Assembly (NCBI RefSeq): GCF_000687995.1 | Contig: NZ_JIAC01000001.1 | Coordinates: 372,001 to 436,000 of the forward strand | Direction of reading: 5' to 3' | Origin: Selenomonas ruminantium AC2024 | GTDB taxonomy: Bacteria; Bacillota; Negativicutes; Selenomonadales; Selenomonadaceae | Length of the DNA: 64,000 bases | Shown: positions 3,881-64,000 of the stretch, piece after piece | Position numbering within the stretch: position 1 is the first letter of the stretch | Layout: every line of letters begins with the position of its first letter | Notes under the pieces: generated by a model | The model's input: only the letters and a program-made list of their open reading frames with translations | The model's database searches: none | What the model was told of the DNA's origin: nothing | Made by a program: the position numbers and the translations under genes

Positions 3881-5823
3881 CAGAAGGCGCCGCCAACACT
3901 GAAGTGAACGCGGCCACCATTGCTGCCTCGGCCATAATCAAGACGCAACGGACCCAGTGGCGTATTCAGAGACAGACCTATACCAACACTGCCATGAATC
4001 GTACCACTCTGCGGCAAAAAGTCATCGAACCAGGCACCGCCCCAATCCGTAAAGATTGCGCCCTGCACCTTGCTGACAATCGGGAAACGGTATTCTAACG
4101 TAGCCAAAATCATATGGTCACCGCGGTACTGGTCATCGCGATAACCGCGCAGGCTGTTCTGGCCACCCACTCTGTACTGATTGAATTCAGAAATGTCGCC
4201 ATGGCCCCAACCATACTTGCCACGCAAAGCAATCACCTGCGCACGCCCCACTTTGAAGTAGCGCTGATCTTCAATCGCCGCCTTCTGGAAATTGAAATCG
4301 CCGCCTAAGCCAGCCACTTCAGCTGACAGGCTGACCCGGCCACCTTCCGTGGGGTTATAGATGTTGTCACGCGTATCGGTAACATGTTCAAAGGTAACAC
4401 TGCGGGTTGTACCGAAATTATCATCGCGCCACTGCTTCCATGCGGGCGTGCTGCGATCCCCCTGATTACCATTCTTCGTGTGACGCACATAGCTATCCGA
4501 ACGATTTTTCAAGGTGATATAGTTCGTGGAAAACTCACTGATCGGACGTCCCAGTATAATTTCTCCACCAGCGTATTTGCGCATATAGCTTTCCTTGAGA
4601 TTACCGTTTGTATCATAATCGCTGTATTCATACGTTCTGTTATACACACGCAACGTACCAACGGTTTCCTTCTTGTCAAGATAAGGATGACGCCAGGAGA
4701 AAGTAAAACCATGTGCATCTTTTTCATTACCGCTGCGTTCGTAGGTAATGCTCACAGCATCGCCAGTACCCCGGAAGTTGGAATCGCCAATGCTCACCAT
4801 CCCGATAACACCATCTGCGGTGCTGTAACCAGCACCGATACCAAAGGTACCCGTGCGTTTTTCCTTGACATCCAGTTCCATAATCACAGCATTGGGTTCC
4901 ACGCCGGGATTCATCTTGATATTTACATCTTCAAAGAAACCCAAGTTGTAAACTCGCTGCATGGAACGGCGGGCCTTCTTGGAGTTAAAGGGTTCTCCAA
5001 CCTTTTGACGCATTTCCCGCAGGATAACGTAATCCTTGGTCTTGGTATTACCCTTTACCTTATAGCCCTCCAATACGCCTTCATTGATTTTCAGCGTAAG
5101 GTTGCCATCCTTATCAATATTCATATCCGTAACCTTAGCCAGAATGTAGCCATCGTTGCGATACTTTTCCTTGACAGCCTGCACATTCTCCTGCAGCGTA
5201 CGGTTATTTAGGATTTCGCCTTCTTTAACGGTAATACAGGAACGCAAATCCTCCGTCTTGTAGACGGTATTGCCCGTAATTTCCACGCTCTTGATAATCG
5301 GATTTTCCAGTACATGATAGGTCAGTACCACACCTTCCGGCACTTTCTGGAAAGTGGGGAACAAGTCATAGAAATAACCTGTATTGTATATTGCTTCCCG
5401 GTCCTTATTCATGCCATTAACCGTGAACATATCACCAGTTTTCATAGACAGCGATGACTTCGCCGTAGCTTCCGTAACGGCAGTAGTCCCCTCAAAAACC
5501 GTATCCACGATGGTCTGGCCTTCGTATTCCTTACTGTACTTTTCAATGGCATCTTCCTGCGGACGGTTCTTGGACCAGTCAGCTGTACGCTTATCTTCCT
5601 GCGCATTTCCCTGCTGAGCAGCCATCTCCGCAGTTTTTTCCGCCGTTGCAGATGTATTCGCAGCAGGCGCACTTGCCGTGCCCGCGGATTCTGCTGCCAC
5701 AGCCGTGGCGGCTTGGCCGGCCGGTTTAGCAGTCACTTCTGCATGCGACACTCCCGGTACAGCAGCAAAACTGGTAGCCAGCGCTACTGCACAGGCAAGG
5801 AATCGTCTGTTTTGTTTGTTCAA
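3880..5823 (-). CDS. bamA: Outer membrane assembly factor BamA
   Basis: Central barrel of the machine that folds beta-barrel proteins into the outer membrane. There is a signal peptide at 1-28 and an Ala/Thr-rich low-complexity linker to about residue 95. Three POTRA-like domains follow (about 100-175, 176-250 and 250-325; for example SVEITGNTVYKTEDL and YKVKGNTKTKDYV), then the Omp85 barrel containing the conserved loop-6 motif LRGYRDD and ending in Phe (VHFSVGGAF). At 647 residues it is shorter than the roughly 800-residue proteobacterial form because it has fewer POTRA domains. The start codon is TTG, supported by GGGAGG eight bases upstream. Confidence 0.95.
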   Translation of the reverse strand: MNKQNRRFLACAVALATSFAAVPGVSHAEVTAKPAGQAATAVAAESAGTASAPAANTSATAEKTAEMAAQQGNAQEDKRTADWSKNRPQEDAIEKYSKEYEGQTIVDTVFEGTTAVTEATAKSSLSMKTGDMFTVNGMNKDREAIYNTGYFYDLFPTFQKVPEGVVLTYHVLENPIIKSVEITGNTVYKTEDLRSCITVKEGEILNNRTLQENVQAVKEKYRNDGYILAKVTDMNIDKDGNLTLKINEGVLEGYKVKGNTKTKDYVILREMRQKVGEPFNSKKARRSMQRVYNLGFFEDVNIKMNPGVEPNAVIMELDVKEKRTGTFGIGAGYSTADGVIGMVSIGDSNFRGTGDAVSITYERSGNEKDAHGFTFSWRHPYLDKKETVGTLRVYNRTYEYSDYDTNGNLKESYMRKYAGGEIILGRPISEFSTNYITLKNRSDSYVRHTKNGNQGDRSTPAWKQWRDDNFGTTRSVTFEHVTDTRDNIYNPTEGGRVSLSAEVAGLGGDFNFQKAAIEDQRYFKVGRAQVIALRGKYGWGHGDISEFNQYRVGGQNSLRGYRDDQYRGDHMILATLEYRFPIVSKVQGAIFTDWGGAWFDDFLPQSGTIHGSVGIGLSLNTPLGPLRLDYGRGSNGGRVHFSVGGAF

Positions 5824-7212: not shown

Positions 7213-10200
7213 TTAAAATGTCATGCGGGCTTCCACACCAACAATGGATTTGTTGGACTCCCGCTCAAAGGTCAAGCCCCAATGGTCATTGATATCATAC
7301 TGCACGCCATAGCGGTTGATGTCTTTACTGCCAAAACCATGCGTATAACGGAGCATAACCTTGTCTGATATATATTTTCCCATAGTTACATTAAAATCAT
7401 ATTTGTTTTCGGCATTTTCTTTATCTTTTTCTGCATTATAGTTGCTGAACAGAGAACCGTTACCCCGGGAAATGGTTAATTTATCCATATACAGGTAGTT
7501 CCGCATAAGGCCCTCTACCTCCGAGAGGAAGGTCATCTGCAGGCCCACCGCCAGCAAATCGCCAGCATTCATACTGCTATTGCCATCCCGGTAAGCATCC
7601 CGCAGCGTCAGCAGCTGCACAATCTGCGTCTGGCTCATGGCTGGGCTGGAAGAAAGTTTCATCTTCGCCGCCCCTAACGGCCCTCTTACCGACAGAAACA
7701 CCCTGGCCCGAGCCAGTTTTGTATCGGCAAAGAAATCGATACTAGGCATAAACGAGGCTACCTGATTGAAGTTCGCGACACCTTGACGGATATTGAACTC
7801 CGTCTTCATATAGTTGATGGTGCCCCCGCGTTTCACCTGCAGACTGCCACTCATCTTGGGATGGCTCATAATGCCCCCGGCATGGAAAGCACCGGTCAGA
7901 TAAAGGTCATAGAGATAGGGACTGTAAAAATGCACCTTATCTCCCACATTGACCTGCACATCCAGAACCATTTCCGGCATTTCGCCATCACTGTCCGGAA
8001 TCGTCGGCACTGACACCTGACAATGCTTAAAATCCAGCTGGCCATAGAGCTTAGGCAGGCGATGTCCATAGAAGTCCGTATCCTTTAGGCTGAACTGTCC
8101 ATTCAGCGGGCCGGTAAAGAACTTGCTGTTTATCCCAAGCTGGTCGATATTCAGCGAAAGGTCATAATGTTCCGGTTCCAAACCGTTAAAGCTTACACTG
8201 CCTTGTAAACGATAGGAACCACCGCCCATTTTACCAGAAAAATCTTCAACTGTCACTTTACTGCCGGCAAAATTCACCTTGACGGCCATATCCGTAACCG
8301 GGTCATTCAGTTCTTTGAGCTTCACCGCCCCATTGGGAACAACAATACTGCCATCTATCAGCGGATGGGCCAGGGAACCGTAAATTTTTACTGCACCTTC
8401 CGTAGCCCCCAACGCCCAATCCACCTGTTTGGATATGGTGGGCAGCAGGGACAGATCTGCATTTTCCAGACCAATCTGCAGCTGAATCTGCTCATAATCT
8501 TCCAGCCATTCATCCTTGCCTGCCGTCAGTGCCCGCAAAGGAACAATCCCTTTAGCTATAGCCGAGCAGCTGCGCTCGCCCACCTGCTTGGCCACCTTCA
8601 GTTCAGTCAAATCAATCAGGCCATTTTTCAAATGTGCAGCTCCGATAAGGGTATCAAAGGACGATCCCTGAACGCCTCCATTTACCACCTGCAAATTCAG
8701 ATCTGCCGCTGGATTATAGGTATAACCGCCAATATTTGCCTCAATATCTGCAGCCCCGGTAACATTCTGCAGCCGCAATCCTGCCAGTCCCGTAAACATA
8801 CCAAAGTCCAGCTGACTGGCCGAAAAATGCACATTCATCGGCCCGCCAATGGTCACGGTTCCCGCTGCGGAAAAGAGTCCATTGGGGCCCTGACTGCCGC
8901 TCAGCTTGTTGATGTAAACGATATGATTCAGCAGCTGCAAATCCAAGGCCACATTGTGCACATCATAGCCGCCCGCAGTCCCCTGCTGAATGTCGCCATC
9001 TACCTTGACCGTAGGATTATCCGCAGTCCCGCTGATATGCGCAAGCAGGTCGGCCCTGCCGCTGATAACATCAGTTTTGGCATTGGCCAATGCCGCCACA
9101 GCCGCAATATCGGCATTCTGCACCACCATATCGCCATCCAGCCTGCCGGTGTTGGTATCATACTCCAGCTCCAAATCATAAGTACCGCCATCCTGTTCAA
9201 AGCCAAAATGGTCAATATCAAAGCTGTTGTTCATGAATTTTACCAAGCCCCGCAGGTTGGTCAATGTCACCCCATTGAGCTCCACCGCAGGCGCATTCAA
9301 GATTCCATGGAATATAGGATTATTAATCGTGCCATCAATCTTGCCCATAAAGGTTCCATGGCCGCTGACCTCATAAGGAAGTTTATGCTCCACCCGCTTC
9401 AAATCGATATCACTGGCCTTCACTTCCATATCCAGCGACTGATCAGCTGTGGTAAGGTTGCCATTCAGCACCATATCAATCATCGGGGAATACGCATGAA
9501 AATCCTGCAGGCGCAGCTTGCCATTTTCCAGGAAATAGTCGCCATCCATACCGGACAGCAGTACCCCCCGATAGCTGCCCCGATAAAAATGAATATAGCC
9601 GACCGCCTTAGGGTTATCTAACGTCCCCGTAAGCTGAATGACATTATCCACATTGCCGGTAATGGGCTGATCCGGCGCAATCAAAGCCGCAATATCTTCC
9701 ATGCGTGCCCCCATGGTATCCAGCCGGAGATTTATGCGCTTCTCCCCGGTAAAACCCACAGAACCTTTGGCCTGCCAGACTTCCTTGCCATCTTTTTCCA
9801 TGAGGAAATCATCAATACCAATTCCATCGAGACTGCCGCTGGCGGCTATTTTCAAACTGTCATAAGGCTGCTTGAAAATCTTCCCTTGAAGGCCGGAGAA
9901 CTTGATGTCCACCTGCGGATTGCGCTTATCACCATGAACAGTACCTTTGAAATCGGCCAGCCCTGACATGTCAATGCGGCTGTCAATATTTTGCAGCATG
10001 GCCAGATCAAAGTGACCGCCATAAAAGGCCAAATCCAACTGAGCGGAATCCCGCATATCCCGAATAGAGCCTTCCAACCCCAAACTGCTGTGGTTAGGCA
10101 TCTTCACACTTAAATAATCAATCAGCAAATCATCATCAGCCAGATAGAAAGATGTCGTTGCTTTATCGACCCGCAGTCCCTGCCAGCCAGCATTTTTCAC

Positions 10201-33937: not shown

Positions 33938-34387
33938 TTAGGCTTCCTGCGCCAGCATTGCCTGCTGGCAATGTGGACAAACGCCATAGAAATAGTATTG
34001 CTGTCCTGTCAGCTGATAGCCTGTCTCGAGCATGACCTGCTCCGAAAAATCCGTGGTCGGCAGGGTCTTTACATCGTCCACCCGGCCACAGTGCATGCAA
34101 CGGATATGCGGGTGCGGACTGACTCTGGCATCATAGCGGAAAGAGTCCTCGCCCACATTCAATTCCTGTACAATTCCTACGGCACACAAAATATTCAACG
34201 ACTTATAGACCGTCGCCAAACTCATGGTAGGATAATCAGGCAGCAATTCCTGATACAAAGTTTCCGCACTGGGATGTTCCGTGGTATGCGCCAGCGCATT
34301 ATACACCGCCAGCCTCTGTGGTGTGACCTTGAAACCGCGCTCCCGCAGCAGCGCAGTCACTTCCTTCGGTTTCAATCCAACCCGCAT
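33938..34387 (-). CDS. Fur family metal-dependent regulator (Fur/PerR type)
   Basis: A 149-residue ferric-uptake-type regulator. The DNA-binding winged helix is at about 8-85 (GFKVTPQRLAVYNALAHT, MSLATVYKSLNIL). The dimerisation domain has the metal motif HPHIRCMHCGRVDDV and a second Cys pair (CPHCQQ) for the structural zinc. I cannot decide between Fur, PerR and Zur from sequence alone. A Fur/PerR-box-like sequence lies in its own promoter region (34408-34425), so it is probably self-regulated. It is the obvious candidate regulator of the metal cluster at 59.8-63.7 kb. RBS AGAAAGGA. Confidence 0.9.
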   Translation of the reverse strand: MRVGLKPKEVTALLRERGFKVTPQRLAVYNALAHTTEHPSAETLYQELLPDYPTMSLATVYKSLNILCAVGIVQELNVGEDSFRYDARVSPHPHIRCMHCGRVDDVKTLPTTDFSEQVMLETGYQLTGQQYYFYGVCPHCQQAMLAQEA

Positions 34388-59833: not shown

Positions 59834-60331
59834 TTACAGCCGTTCTGCCGCCAATTCTGCAATCTTATCTTCCAGTACGGCAAGTTTCGGCTTTTGTCGA
59901 AGCTGTGCTATATCATAGGTGATAAGCAGGGAACCGGTCAGCGGATTGATAGCGGCAGTCTGCACGCCTGTGAAGGATTTTACATATTCCTCCAGGGGCT
60001 GCTGCCATTCGGGATAAGCTGCCAGCAGACTGCTGCGCAGGCGCACACGGCCCGGTACATAGGAATCCACCTGAAAGCTGTTCACCAGCACCTGCACGGG
60101 AGTAAGCTGTGCATGAATATCCGCTTTGACCGTCAGGCAGCAGTTTTTGAGTCTGCCCGCATCAGCCTGCATCTTCTTATGATGCTGCCAGCCATGCCAA
60201 AAGGACAGCGCCGCCCAGGCAACACCGAAGCCGGCGTGAAGATTCTTGCCGGCGAACAGGGTTGCCAGCGTGCCCACCGAAGCCATCGTCATGGGCAGGC
60301 CCAAGGGTAAATTTTTCCAGTCGTTCTGCAT
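59834..60331 (-). CDS. HMA-like membrane protein of the metal-storage cluster
   Basis: A 165-residue protein with two hydrophobic stretches near the N-terminus (about 8-25 and 28-46), then a His-rich turn (WHGWQHHKKM). An HMA_2-like ferredoxin fold follows, with the motif YVPGRVRLRSSLL (about 91-103) and GVQTAAINPLTGSLLITYD. The PGRVR and GSLLI patterns are shared with the proteins at 62464-63120 and 63124-63423. It has no CxxC. It is last gene of the five-gene operon, right after the ATPase. In the fez comparison it would be the accessory HMA protein. Confidence 0.75.
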   Translation of the reverse strand: MQNDWKNLPLGLPMTMASVGTLATLFAGKNLHAGFGVAWAALSFWHGWQHHKKMQADAGRLKNCCLTVKADIHAQLTPVQVLVNSFQVDSYVPGRVRLRSSLLAAYPEWQQPLEEYVKSFTGVQTAAINPLTGSLLITYDIAQLRQKPKLAVLEDKIAELAAERL

Positions 60332-60349
60332 GATTATCCCCCTTTTCTA

Positions 60350-62467
60350 TCAGGCTGCCCGGCGGTTGCTGCGGGCAAAGAAACCAGACTTATTGCTGTT
60401 CAAAATACGGCAGCTGTTAAGCACGACAGCCAAAGTTGCCGTATTGTGAATCACGGCCGCCCACAGCGGGCTGATTTTGCCCAACGCGCCTAAAAGCATA
60501 GCCGAGGAATTGACCAGAATGGTCGCCATGAAGTTCTGATGCACCAAATCCATGGTGCGGCGGCCAAGCTGCAGAGTTTCAATCAGACGTTCCGGGTCTT
60601 CGGAGTGGATGGTCACAGCCGAGGATTCCGCGGCAATATCCGTCTGCCGCCCGCCCAGAGATACACCGACATCGGAGAAAGCCAATGCTGGCGCATCGTT
60701 AATACCATCGCCGACCATCATGACCGTACCACGCTGCTTGAGCTTGTTGACATAATGGCTCTTGTCCTCCGGCAGGATTTCGGCATGATAGGAGTCAATA
60801 TCCATATTGTGGGCAACTTCGGCGGCTACCGCCTTGCTGTCGCCCGTGAGCATGACGATTTCATCCACACCATGACGGCGCATCTGATTCAGCGTCTTTT
60901 TCATCTTCGGACGGATGGGATCTTCGATACCGATAACGCCGATAAGGTCCTTATCACGGGCTACATAGAGAAGATTCTTGAAGGCCAGGCCATCCGCCAG
61001 CCCCTGCGTATCTTCAATGCCGTTTTCCCGCAGGAATTTCAGGCTGCCGACACGAATGAGGCCCCCCTTATACCCTTCAAAGTCAGGCACCTTGGCCTGC
61101 ATACCGCGGGCCACAATGGTCTTGGAAGATGTATGCTGAGGCGAAGTCCATTCCTGCGCCTCCACGTATTTCTGAATGGCTACCGCCAGCGGATGAACGG
61201 AATGCTGCTCGGCAGAAGATGCCAAGAGAATCATTTCCTTTTCCTCTACGCCCTTGGCGGTTTTGACAAAGGCAATCTGCGGAATGCCCACCGTGAGCGT
61301 ACCCGTTTTATCGAGCACGACCGTATCGGTTTCGGCCAGAGCCTCAATATAGTTGCCGCCCTTGACGAGGATACCGCGCTTGGCCGCCGCACCGATGGCC
61401 GCCGACATGGCCGTAGCCGTGGACAATTTGAGCCCGCAGGAGAAGTCGATAAACAAGAGGTTCAACACACGCTGCCAATCACGGGTAGCACCATAGACAA
61501 TACCTGCGCCGATAAAGGAAACTGGCACGAGGAAATTGGCCATCTTGTCGGCAAAGTTCTGCACCGGAGCCTTGCGGTTCTGGGCTTCTTCCACCAGATG
61601 GACGATATGGGCCAGCGACGTGTCCTTACCGACCTTTTCGACCTTGATAACCAGTTCACCGGCCTCAACCACACTGCCGGCATAGACAGGCGAATCCGTA
61701 TGCTTCATGGCAGGATTGGACTCACCGGTAATGGATGCCTGATTGACTGCGGCATCGCCGCTGATTACCCGGCCGTCCACAACGATTTTTTCACCGGTAT
61801 GGGCCGCGATGGTATCGCCAACCTTGACCTGTTCCACAGGAACTTTGCGCTCGACCTCGCCTTCCACCAGCCATACATAACGCTGGTCAAGAGAAAGCAG
61901 GCCCGAGATATGCGTACGGGCCTTTTCAGCCGCATAGCTTGTGAGCATTTCTGCACCGTTGGACAGCGCCAAAAGTGTCAGGCTGGATTCGGGCTTGCCC
62001 GCCAGCACTGAGGCGATAACGGCCGTAGCCGTCAGGGTATCGGCATTGGGCTGATGGTCTTTGACCACGCCGCTCACGCCGTTTTGGATAAACTTCCGGG
62101 CAATGCCCAGCACCAGCAGGCTGCGCAAAATCTTCGAGCCCACAAAAAGCTGCGGCGAAGTGCGCTTTAAGACTTCCATCGCCGCAAAGCCCGCCAGGGA
62201 AATCACGGCATCCCGGCGGTATTCGGCCAGCCGTTCAGAGGGCGTAATGGCCGCTTCCTGCAGGCGTTTTACGGTTTCAATCAGCATTTTTTGAATTTCC
62301 TGCAGCTGATAAGCCGTCATCTGTCGTTTATACCAGATATGCACCTTGCATTCATCCACCGTCACCGCAATAATATTGCGGTTGCGGCGGATTTTAGCGG
62401 CCAGCTTTGCCCGTTCTTCACGGTTGAGCGCTGCCTGCAGGTGAAAATAACAATTTCCGTACATCAT
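60350..62467 (-). CDS. P1B-type metal-transporting ATPase (fezB-like)
   Basis: A 705-residue P-type ATPase. It has the actuator TGES (247-250), the phosphorylated Asp386 in DKTGTLTVG, and MVGDGINDAPAL with the hinge region. The ion-channel helix reads FIDFSCGLKLSTATAM: the canonical CPC/CPx is replaced by FSC (Ser343, Cys344), so this is not a copper or zinc CPx pump. The N-terminus (about 1-75) is an HMA_2-like domain without CxxC. The start ATG 62467 overlaps the upstream stop (ATGA), with AGAGGGTGG before it; a GTG 36 bases upstream is less likely. The iron-loading ATPase of ferrosomes (FezB, P1B-6 class) is the closest concept. Confidence 0.85.
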   Translation of the reverse strand: MMYGNCYFHLQAALNREERAKLAAKIRRNRNIIAVTVDECKVHIWYKRQMTAYQLQEIQKMLIETVKRLQEAAITPSERLAEYRRDAVISLAGFAAMEVLKRTSPQLFVGSKILRSLLVLGIARKFIQNGVSGVVKDHQPNADTLTATAVIASVLAGKPESSLTLLALSNGAEMLTSYAAEKARTHISGLLSLDQRYVWLVEGEVERKVPVEQVKVGDTIAAHTGEKIVVDGRVISGDAAVNQASITGESNPAMKHTDSPVYAGSVVEAGELVIKVEKVGKDTSLAHIVHLVEEAQNRKAPVQNFADKMANFLVPVSFIGAGIVYGATRDWQRVLNLLFIDFSCGLKLSTATAMSAAIGAAAKRGILVKGGNYIEALAETDTVVLDKTGTLTVGIPQIAFVKTAKGVEEKEMILLASSAEQHSVHPLAVAIQKYVEAQEWTSPQHTSSKTIVARGMQAKVPDFEGYKGGLIRVGSLKFLRENGIEDTQGLADGLAFKNLLYVARDKDLIGVIGIEDPIRPKMKKTLNQMRRHGVDEIVMLTGDSKAVAAEVAHNMDIDSYHAEILPEDKSHYVNKLKQRGTVMMVGDGINDAPALAFSDVGVSLGGRQTDIAAESSAVTIHSEDPERLIETLQLGRRTMDLVHQNFMATILVNSSAMLLGALGKISPLWAAVIHNTATLAVVLNSCRILNSNKSGFFARSNRRAA

Positions 62468-63120
62468 ACGGTACGCCACCCTCTTATTAAGGTCACGGCC
62501 CACCAGAGCATCTGGGAGCCTGATGGATACTGCTTAGTAAGCATCATCTTTCTAAGACCACGGAGCAGGAACAATAGCGAAGCCAAAGAGCTCATATCGA
62601 ACCAACCGCAGGTATGGTCCTTAATCCACTGGCTGAATGCCCGCGCCGTATTGCGAATGCTGCGCGTGATGCTGCCTGCATGGGCTTCAGAGCTTGCCAT
62701 AGCCGCCATCTTGCCAAAGCCATGGCTGATTTTAGCGGCCACACCGCCGAAGAACTTACGTTCCAGCCACTGTGCCAACTGTTCGACATCGGCCTCATAG
62801 GCCTCATCGAATACCAGCAGGATGCTGCCGCTGACGGGATTTGCCTGTACACTTTTCACATAATTGAGCTTAACAAGCTGTTCTTCCAAAAGCTTTGCCA
62901 GTTCCGGCGAAAGCTTGCTCACGCGATAACGGCGGCGTCCAGGCAGGCTCGACACCAGCTTAAAGGACGGCGCCGGGCAGACTGCTGCTGCCACCGTGCG
63001 CTTTACCTTGCGCAAAGGCATGGCTGCGCTACCCATCTTAGGTGCACCGCCACCTGCTACCATCTGGCGAATGCTCTTGCCAATAGCCGCCCCCATCATA
63101 AAACCTGATACATAAGACAT
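62464..63120 (-). CDS. HMA_2-like protein with C-terminal membrane segment
   Basis: A 218-residue protein. The N-terminal glycine-rich hydrophobic stretch is GFMMGAAIGKSIRQMV. The HMA_2-like module is at about 50-125 (SSLPGRRRYRV, YVKSVQANPVSGSILLVFDE). A helical region at about 130-165 resembles AhpC/ferritin-like packing helices only loosely, and a hydrophobic segment lies at about 172-190 (MSSLASLLFLLRGL). Its stop overlaps the ATPase start. It is the likely partner of the ATPase; a fez-cluster homologue would fit. The exact role is unknown. Confidence 0.75.
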   Translation of the reverse strand: MSYVSGFMMGAAIGKSIRQMVAGGGAPKMGSAAMPLRKVKRTVAAAVCPAPSFKLVSSLPGRRRYRVSKLSPELAKLLEEQLVKLNYVKSVQANPVSGSILLVFDEAYEADVEQLAQWLERKFFGGVAAKISHGFGKMAAMASSEAHAGSITRSIRNTARAFSQWIKDHTCGWFDMSSLASLLFLLRGLRKMMLTKQYPSGSQMLWWAVTLIRGWRTV

Positions 63121-63123
63121 TCG

Positions 63124-63423
63124 TTATTTCCTCCTCGCATGCGTCATAATATACTCCTCCACCTTGCGCAGTTCTGCGTTGCGGCGAAGTCTTTCCGGCT
63201 CATAAAGGATTAATATGGAACCCGATGTGGTGTTGGTCTGCACACTGTCAATCTCGCCAAAAGCCAACAGCTGACTTTCGACTTCTGCTGCCAAACCGGC
63301 ATTGCCGATGAGATTATTGCTATACAAACGCACCCGTCCGGGCAGATAGGACGAGATATCCACAGAACGGATAAATAAATCCAACTTATTGGTGGGGATT
63401 TGGATGTTTCCCAGCAAACTCAA
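63124..63423 (-). CDS. Small HMA_2-like protein (TTG start)
   Basis: A 99-residue protein, mostly one HMA_2-like module: SSYLPGRVRLYSNNL, then VESQLLAFGEIDSVQTNTTSG and SILILYEPERLRR. The TTG start at 63423 is chosen because GGGAGG lies seven bases upstream and the longer frame would run into the terminator hairpin at 63445-63481. It lies three bases upstream of the 62464-63120 gene. The shared LPGRVRL motif links it to the other two HMA_2 proteins in this operon. Confidence 0.75.
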   Translation of the reverse strand: MSLLGNIQIPTNKLDLFIRSVDISSYLPGRVRLYSNNLIGNAGLAAEVESQLLAFGEIDSVQTNTTSGSILILYEPERLRRNAELRKVEEYIMTHARRK

Positions 63424-63444
63424 AACAATTTCCTCCCTGTTGAC

Positions 63445-63481
63445 AAGAAAAGACTGCCGCAAACGTCAAGAGCGGCAGTCT
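63445..63481 (-). terminator. Intra-operon terminator/attenuator after the small membrane protein
   Basis: AGACTGCCGC / GCGGCAGTCT stem, followed on the minus strand by TTTTCTTG. It lies between the first and second genes of the metal operon, so the first gene is probably made in excess over the rest. Confidence 0.75.
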
Positions 63482-63508
63482 CCTTTCTCGTCAAAAACGA
63501 TTTATAAC

Positions 63509-63718
63509 TTATTTAGCCTTTTTCGCTTCCTGAGCTGCGATCAAATCTTCGAGCTCTTCCTTCTGGCGCTGCAGTTCAGCAACCGGAAGTTCAGCAGCGG
63601 GAGCAGCCTGCTGCATAGCAGCCAGCTGAGCTTCACGCTCCTGCATGAAACGATAGCCAAAAATACCAGCAACAGCACCTACAGCCAGACCAATCCAAAA
63701 GTCAGTTTTCTGGAACAT
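63509..63718 (-). CDS. Small single-pass membrane protein with coiled-coil tail
   Basis: A 69-residue protein. The start MFQKTD is supported by AAGGAGG nine bases upstream. The membrane helix (about 5-24) is built on GLAVGAVAGIFGYRF, with small residues every four positions, as in oligomerising organelle proteins such as FezA or MamD-like proteins. The remainder is a Glu/Gln/Ala-rich helix with Lys at the end. It is first gene of the metal operon and probably the most abundant product. The assignment to the fez class is inferred from context. Confidence 0.65.
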   Translation of the reverse strand: MFQKTDFWIGLAVGAVAGIFGYRFMQEREAQLAAMQQAAPAAELPVAELQRQKEELEDLIAAQEAKKAK

Positions 63719-63821
63719 CGAATCCATCCTCCTTAACATAAAACAACATATAAACAGGGATTATCCCCGCCTATTTCTTTATTGGGCATCCTGTTTCCCC
63801 ATTCTGCCATTGGAGAACAAA

Positions 63822-63847
63822 ATCGATAATGTAGAAATATTATCAAT
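63822..63847. promoter_or_regulatory. Fur-box-like operator before the metal operon
   Basis: ATCGATAAT-GTAGAAAT-ATTATCAAT is a 9-bp inverted repeat with one mismatch. Its GATAAT/ATTATC half-sites are those of Fur boxes. It lies over or just after the start site of the proximal promoter. Confidence 0.7.
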
Positions 63848-63857
63848 TTCAAGCTAA

Positions 63858-63886
63858 ATCATAGCAGAATTGAGATTTTTTGTCAA
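63858..63886 (-). promoter_or_regulatory. Proximal promoter of the metal operon
   Basis: Minus strand TTGACA (63881-63886), 17 bases, TATGAT (63858-63863). It reads into the gene at 63509-63718. Confidence 0.85.
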
Positions 63887-63910
63887 TGCAGGAATTCCCC
63901 TCTACACCTT

Positions 63911-63940
63911 ATTATAAAAGGCATAAAGGGGAATTGTCAA
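63911..63940 (-). promoter_or_regulatory. Distal promoter of the metal operon
   Basis: Minus strand TTGACA (63935-63940), 18 bases, TATAAT (63911-63916), 53 bases upstream of the proximal promoter. Both boxes are consensus. The rest of the window to 64000 has no visible gene. Confidence 0.8.
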
Positions 63941-64000
63941 TTAATTCTATACAATCAATAGTAATTATTAATCACACTTGTCCTCACTGGGTACCCTATA

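Follow-up and report, generated by a model that had tools for sequence, protein, structure and literature searches.

Ferrosomes are recently described organelles, very small iron stores enclosed by a membrane, reported from Desulfovibrio magneticus, Rhodopseudomonas palustris and Clostridioides difficile (PMC10979944, PMC12016538, PMC12574912), and the question raised here is whether a five-gene operon of Selenomonas ruminantium AC2024 belongs with the ferrosome gene clusters. The operon lies in a window of 64,000 nucleotides (the whole stretch of DNA that was analysed, C1:372001-436000 of a one-contig genome of 2.83 Mb). We consider it quite probable that this is a ferrosome (fez) operon whose lineage differs from those of the fez types compared here. 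What the sequences show is homology, a kept gene order, histidines that do not vary and RNA pairing that is conserved; the organelle itself, its metal, a bound heme and the switch discussed below are what we infer. Three protein links, through the ATPase, a two-histidine hairpin and a small membrane protein, group the operon with the gene clusters of ferrosomes as a lineage of its own, marked by a rearranged FezC-like protein, by extra HMA_2 proteins and, in this genus, by a conserved leader RNA. An initial annotation of the same DNA had already proposed a fez cluster; that assignment is strengthened by the homology of its ATPase, gene 5 and gene 1 to fez-like operons and loses the Fur box on which it had partly relied. 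Should this lineage make ferrosomes, storage of that type would reach Selenomonas and its relatives, Fusobacterium and also a plasmid of Priestia megaterium. Our literature search returned no paper joining ferrosomes with Negativicutes or Selenomonas; the two primary Nature papers lay outside that search, and their trees may already contain the lineage.

The operon is real, and its five co-directional genes span 59834-63718 on the minus strand, as originally described:

63509..63718, minus strand: gene 1, a 69-amino-acid glycine-zipper membrane protein with a KEELEDLIAAQ tail, linked by family and HHalign comparison to the YtxH/DUF6110-like small membrane proteins that fez-like operons encode
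63443..63481, minus strand: terminator or attenuator 3' of gene 1, a hairpin with a T-run
63124..63423, minus strand: gene 2, a 99-amino-acid HMA_2 protein with LPGRVRLY, no cysteine and a TTG start (PF19991, E 4e-13)
62464..63120, minus strand: gene 3, a 218-amino-acid HMA_2 protein with LPGRRRYR and hydrophobic C-terminal stretches (PF19991, E 1.1e-24)
60350..62467, minus strand: gene 4, a putative FezB-like P1B ATPase of 705 amino acids with SCG in its metal-site helix (TIGR01525, E 1.3e-155; trees)
59834..60331, minus strand: gene 5, a predicted FezC-like protein of 165 amino acids with an N-terminal two-helix hairpin (LHAGFG...WHGW, residues 6-60) and a C-terminal HMA_2 domain (VPGRVRLR) (PF19991, E 1.8e-10; hairpin profile)

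The start of gene 1 had been put at 63739 and is most likely the ATG at 63718, which stands behind GGAGGA and gives 69 amino acids. Gene 2 begins with the TTG at 63423, and the ATPase start at 62467 overlaps the stop of gene 3, the two genes sharing four bases. Genes 2, 3 and 5, described from the outset as HMA_2 proteins with a PGRVR or PGRRR motif, all score above the Pfam PF19991 cut-off; in NCBIfam, genes 1, 2, 3 and 5 have no match above cut-off.

The P1B ATPase and its relatives

The metal-site helix of gene 4 reads IDFSCGLKLST where other P1B pumps have CPC, and the claim of a P1B ATPase lacking the CPx motif is thus borne out. Related pumps are of two other kinds, one with CPC and one with D[YF]SCA[IL]KL; the labels SCG and SCA are used here as shorthand, and rows with ICG, ACG, SCV and ACP fall within the two groups so named. 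The SCA type we take to be the P1B-6 class. By 2016 neither P1B-6 nor P1B-7 pumps had been examined biochemically, according to PMC4932525.

A genome scan with SCA fragments, of which the best 80 of at least 588 loci were retained, recovered among those 80 Rhodopseudomonas sp. BR0M22, three Shewanella and several Desulfovibrio. Trees were built of 37 and of 58 rows, the larger taking 21 of the 80 SCA loci and dropping one very long branch (L063) that the smaller contains. The SCG set (14 and 15 rows, respectively) and the SCA set (8 and 29 rows) each form one clade, with support of at least 100/99 in the 37- and 58-row trees; the SCG clade is sister to the SCA clade (99/98), and CPx pumps fall outside both. 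In the 58-row tree the SCA clade includes Rhodopseudomonas sp. BR0M22, three Shewanella and three Desulfovibrio rows. Gene 4 therefore lacks both the CPC motif and the tree placement of the CPx exporter class (Cu, Zn/Cd). Its nearest kin are the fez-type ATPases, to which it stands as a member of a sister group, and it lies apart from those CPx exporters that were sampled.

Proteobacterial SCA ATPases stand in operons with HMA_2 and YtxH-like proteins, as in Azospirillum brasilense (L096), where six annotated genes follow in a row; in Deinococcus the neighbour is a DUF6110 protein. Three genomes of the same phylum (L085, L090, L092) pair an SCA ATPase with a small membrane protein, and differ from the present operon in having one such protein and an ATPase with a GRxR N-terminus.

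The hairpin of gene 5 and the small membrane protein of gene 1

Residues 6-60 of gene 5 form a hydrophobic two-helix hairpin (K.LH.GFG...WHGW) that the initial annotation had missed. A profile of this hairpin, built from Firmicute loci with no proteobacterial rows, matched proteins of SCA operons in Paramagnetospirillum (E 3e-11), Parasutterella (4.6e-10) and Azospirillum (6.7e-9 to 6.3e-8), as well as Desulfovibrio proteins (1.1e-6 to 8.4e-6). Of 85 SCA loci, 31 were matched at E<1e-3, some of the Azospirillum rows among them being near-copies; no reversed decoy matched, and across 26 loci without an SCG or SCA ATPase the best E was 0.83. These decoy and control scans are free of the partial circularity that affects the HHalign value of the proteobacterial hairpin alignment, which was itself gathered with the Firmicute profile. 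The spacing of the two histidines, H-x13-H, holds in 54/54 hairpins (23/23 and 31/31). The position of the hairpin varies: it is C-terminal to HMA_2 in Azospirillum and Paramagnetospirillum, stands alone in Arcobacter, and is N-terminal to HMA_2 in gene 5.

FezC of ferrosomes is described in a preprint as a DUF4405-like cytochrome whose heme site arises via homodimerisation (PMC10979944). DUF4405 matches under the curated cut-off were obtained for the hairpin proteins of Arcobacter (6.8e-4) and Azospirillum (0.046), and none for those of Paramagnetospirillum, Parasutterella and two Desulfovibrio. The FezC of D. magneticus from the same report can be compared by genus proxy: the hairpin proteins of two Desulfovibrio loci, L165 and L177, match the gene 5 hairpin at E 8e-6 and 1e-6, and their genes adjoin genes for a small membrane protein and an SCA ATPase. 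Unlike gene 5, neither of these two matches any Pfam family up to E 5, and their HMA_2-like N-terminus is recognized by eye only. Gene 5 would accordingly be FezC-like, with heme binding as a prediction from its sequence, and a family-wide hairpin with two fixed histidines offers a direct handle on the cytochrome role proposed for FezC.

Of 43 loci, 23 have the hairpin within the cluster. A second layout makes it part of gene 2, and the gene 2 found here is read from that layout as a hairpin-less copy, which suggests that it has lost the hairpin. Stand-alone hairpin-HMA_2 (FezC-like) genes occur away from the operon at L247:6243-6743 and L248:4967-5518, in the two genomes with hairpin-less clusters that the search for such genes covered.

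Gene 1 was correctly recognized at first sight as a small glycine-zipper protein, and it has a charged tail. Of 46 related loci, 45 contain a member of its family, the exception, L215, being cut off by a contig end (which also affects the count of gene orders below). In HHalign comparisons with the small proteins of SCA loci, gene 1 reached 96.8% against the YtxH-like kind (2.6% when reversed, no more than 2.4% in 59 scored shuffles) and 93.6% against the DUF6110-like kind (2.5% when reversed, no more than 3.5% in scored shuffles), with 59, 60 and 59 of 60 shuffles scored in the HHalign controls. Small proteins of this kind, counted irrespective of position, are found in 82/88 SCA loci. Genes 1 and 5 are thus both related to proteins of fez-like operons, and the sequence of gene 1 argues for a small membrane protein of the FezA/YtxH/DUF6110 kind, a match of kind and not of fez name.

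The attenuator proposed after the first gene is there as a hairpin and T-run (63481-63443), and 37 of the 43 loci scanned, this one counted, have such a structure; the count comes from a lenient scan with no shuffle control, and a general scan with a loop limit of 8 does not list the gene 1 hairpin. Because this terminator-like hairpin follows gene 1 in so many loci, the product of gene 1 probably outnumbers the pump, as would suit a structural protein.

Among known systems the closest likeness is to the proteobacterial six-gene fez operons, of which that of R. palustris is given as RPA2333-2338 (PMC12016538). These operons likewise have a P1B ATPase without CPx, an HMA_2 protein with GR[IV]R, a two-histidine hairpin and a small membrane protein with a KE..ED/..L.AE tail; they differ in having SCA where we find SCG and the hairpin C-terminal instead of N-terminal to HMA_2, and three HMA_2 proteins are present here. 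Two Azospirillum proteins, of 119 and 114 amino acids, have no obvious counterpart among our five genes, no search aimed at one having been made. For the Firmicutes, the comparison is with the fez gene layout that C. difficile is said to have. Its FezA and FezB (PMC12574912), compared by description only, are alike in being a membrane protein and a P1B ATPase of a Firmicute.

Distribution of the cluster and the weighing of its function

HMA_2 proteins above the Pfam cut-off were found in 103 of 189 genomes of the family and in 45 of 398 genomes sampled from the phylum, 16 of the latter (this genome counted) having an ATPase at least 50% identical to gene 4. The order gene 1, HMA_2, HMA_2, ATPase is kept in 37/43 loci examined, the present one included, which is more than chance; gene 1 comes last in Priestia, in Fusobacterium and in three further genomes (G370, G268, G049). 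The same five kinds of gene form a cassette on plasmid pBM400 of Priestia megaterium QM B1551, and a similar set is present in Fusobacterium vincentii. The pBM400 cassette (L035:2844-6670) lies directly downstream of an IS256-like transposase, and its ATPase motif is ICG, not SCG. A plasmid search with gene 3 gave no match at E up to 0.01.

Neighbouring genes were scanned for a connection to iron in four relatives, over ten neighbouring proteins. One of the four (L200, genome G370) has feoB about 0.6 kb upstream of the cluster, and in a second (L198) a SufBD protein lies just past the ATPase; among the proteins scanned in L201 there is no obvious iron gene. In the fourth, L218 (G049), the fez-like cluster is closely followed by a gene for an ApbE flavin transferase (9047-10078), which is of note since flavinylation and FezC have each been connected with DUF4405 cytochromes.

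If the operon is of the ferrosome type, gene 1 and the GRxR-bearing HMA_2 proteins would shape or recruit the vesicle membrane, and the FezB-like ATPase would pump iron, probably Fe2+, into the vesicle. The hairpin of gene 5 would dimerise around a heme and help to change the redox state of iron during loading or release, as proposed for FezC, and control of expression would lie with two promoters, P1 and P2, together with a 5' leader RNA hiding the Shine-Dalgarno sequence of gene 1 by default.

Several observations weigh against this assignment. The SCG ATPases stand beside the SCA clade as its sister and do not fall within it, so that a different metal or role is possible, and the trees are anchored by same-genus proxies and operon layout, no FezA, FezB or FezC from organisms with observed ferrosomes having been compared. 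The hairpin is seen in no more than 31 of the 85 SCA loci; gene 5 itself has no match to DUF4405 at E up to 1, the link running via other bacteria; and no hairpin was found in the clusters of Fusobacterium and Priestia. No iron gene was seen adjoining our own cluster, and a search of its promoter found no classical Fur box. The wider clade also holds CPC pumps, one of them beside a small DUF1490 protein, and the pairing of a small membrane protein with a P1B ATPase is therefore not unique to ferrosomes.

This last point bears on the foremost alternative, an efflux platform in the plasma membrane with no organelle, in which the ATPase and its small membrane and HMA_2 partners export Fe2+ or another divalent metal in the manner of mycobacterial P1B pumps with DUF1490 or PacL partners (PacL reportedly being a partner of such pumps). 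The nearest group outside SCG and SCA is indeed that of the CPC pumps, one beside DUF1490 on a Rhodococcus plasmid, and a small protein of the Firmicute SCA kind weakly matches DUF1490 (E 0.022). Against such a platform stand the two-histidine hairpin and the GRxR HMA_2 proteins, which are common to fez-like operons, the failure of the hairpin profile to rise above chance (best E 0.83) where no SCG or SCA ATPase is present, and the loss of the CPC signature in gene 4; we regard simple efflux as a minority reading, held at about one chance in five. A CPC pump of the neighbouring group that adjoins a small DUF1490 protein (L037:2436-4926) suggests that the small-membrane-protein partner may predate ferrosomes.

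The leader RNA and the Fur question

Upstream of gene 1 the operon carries the following elements:

63911..63940, minus strand: promoter P1, TTGACA-18-TATAAT, sigma-70-like, 12/12 consensus match
63858..63886, minus strand: promoter P2, TTGACA-17-TATGAT, sigma-70-like, 11/12, with TG ahead of the -10 element
63724..63850, minus strand: 5' leader RNA of 127 nucleotides, one genomic copy, no Rfam match (E 1.3e-24 with model R1, which was built with this leader among its members)
63819..63850, minus strand: leader stem 1, 12 base pairs, containing the dyad 63822-63847
63795..63817, minus strand: invariant core TTCTCCA-ATGGCAGAA-TGGGGAA, anti-Shine-Dalgarno with a possible alternative partner
63750..63774, minus strand: leader stem 3, sequence-variable, 95.8% of cells paired; also a terminator-like scan match
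63727..63732, minus strand: Shine-Dalgarno sequence GGAGGA of gene 1

Both consensus promoters of the initial annotation are confirmed, in a promoter scan that gave 8 promoter-like sites against 3.5 in shuffles. The start point of P2 is expected at about 63851, adjoining the first base of the leader, which thus begins where P2 transcripts should start. With lengths of 123 to 131 nucleotides, the leader is present in 16/22 genomes of the genus (this one counted) and in one genome of another genus, as a single copy in each of the 17 and directly followed by gene 1 in 17/17; a search of 380 genomes of the class found no convincing copy beyond these. One match of the RNA model (G116, E 0.021, 28 bits), beside two opposite-strand genes that are not fez genes, was rejected as chance, and five weak BLAST matches (E 0.0035 to 0.0063; 19 to 29 bases) were dropped. 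Identity with a known riboswitch was also rejected: Rfam 15 over 63400-64000 gave 11 matches with E of 10 or less, every one of them far short of the gathering score. The NiCo (czcD) riboswitch, which is said to respond to Fe2+ in work cited by two papers (PMC11477304, PMC9481103), is alike in being an RNA upstream of metal-transport genes and unlike in being absent from those matches.

The region 63720-63853 folds better than its shuffles (z -3.1, 1/200 as good). A three-stem structure, drawn by hand from the same alignment on which it was scored, keeps 97.9% of pair cells, against 44-54% with the partners slid, and its covariation score and its count of paired cells each exceed 500/500 shuffles; the three pairs changed on both sides are not beyond chance, since 92 of the 500 shuffles reach as many. 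Across the 17 sequences 98.5% of stem 1 cells are paired, some drifting to G-U and one pair changing from U-A to C-G, and stem 3 has two pairs with changes on both sides. Stem 2 hardly varies: all seven pairs of the core are possible in 17/17 leaders, and six of the seven are invariant and so lend no covariation support. The most conserved part reads UUCUCCAAYGGCAGAAUGGRGAA, from which L237 departs by one extra A and by GAG for GAA.

Two partners are available to UUCUCC, the adjacent UGGRGAA (possible in 17/17) and the Shine-Dalgarno GGAGGA. In folding predictions the Shine-Dalgarno sequence of every one of the 17 leaders is paired at 0.90 or above (mean 0.98), UUCUCC being its partner in 15, and the alternative UUCUCC:UGGRGAA pairing has a mean probability of 0.03; RNAalifold likewise favours UUCUCC:Shine-Dalgarno over stem 2, its covariation term being small (-2.15). 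For 24 fez operons of the family and class that lack the leader, the mean is 0.48 and one of the 24 reaches 0.9; the stretches compared are arbitrary, their transcript starts being unmapped, and the count omits 8 further loci that gave no score and 7 leader loci that were excluded. In these models the leader looks like a translational switch with default off, for which iron is the natural guess as a signal, and a protein-bound or temperature-dependent leader may be other readings. We tentatively propose, as a possibility well short of even, that an undescribed translational riboswitch governs an iron-organelle operon: UUCUCC:GGAGGA would hide the start of gene 1 and UUCUCC:UGGRGAA would free it, perhaps on Fe2+, and within one genus this RNA may replace the Fur box of two members. 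Such a leader would be a compact case of RNA control over an organelle.

The two members in question, G143 (L185) and G157 (L188), have no leader and carry a near-canonical Fur box over the fez promoter, with 4 and 3 mismatches out of 19, an apparent swap of regulators relative to the leader genomes. Here the initial annotation had seen a Fur-box-like dyad at 63822-63847; the dyad is real, and it is better read as the first stem of the leader, since it behaves as an RNA stem. Tested against a 19-base Fur consensus, the upstream region gave a best match with 6 mismatches, equalled by 22% of 60 shuffles, and the one 19-mer of the genome with 3 mismatches lies elsewhere, near an enolase gene.

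That the dyad is nevertheless a Fur operator, and the leader RNA incidental, seems to us improbable, roughly a one-in-eight prospect. It has the outer hexamers GATAAT and ATTATC, the genome has two Fur-family genes, and Fur-like 19-mers (reached by at most 3% of their own shuffles) occur in 14 of 42 upstream regions, ours counted among the 42, G143 and G157 included; 13 of the 14 are without the leader, and in the remaining one, L183, the match lies inside stem 1. The six mismatches and a spacing of 8 tell against an operator, as does the drift of the right arm to ATTGTTG or ATTATTA in relatives, which breaks the palindrome in the DNA but, through G-U pairing, preserves the stem in the RNA. 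One of the two Fur-family genes lies inside the window (33992-34342, minus strand, E 5.3e-28).

A store or detoxification vesicle for another metal (Zn, Mn, Ni or Co) made from the same parts is the least likely alternative, with a little under one chance in ten: SCG does replace SCA at the metal-site helix and the substrate is deduced, whereas the feoB neighbour in L200 and a hairpin common to proteins of fez-like operons speak for iron. No ordinary ferritin, bacterioferritin or Dps was found in the complete genome by PF00210 (the ferritin family) at E 1e-3; its two marginal matches are both rubrerythrin-like by eye.

Upstream of the operon lie genes named by eye as an RND-type pump, a membrane-fusion protein and a MarR-like regulator. 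The host is taken to be a selenomonad, and hence the diderm Firmicute first proposed, from its enolase, which shares 89.2% identity with the Selenomonas ruminantium TAM6421 enzyme (62-63% for the other listed records), and from an Omp85/BamA match in the same genome (E 1.4e-41). The latter, a marker of a diderm envelope, falls within the window at 3883-4779 on the minus strand.

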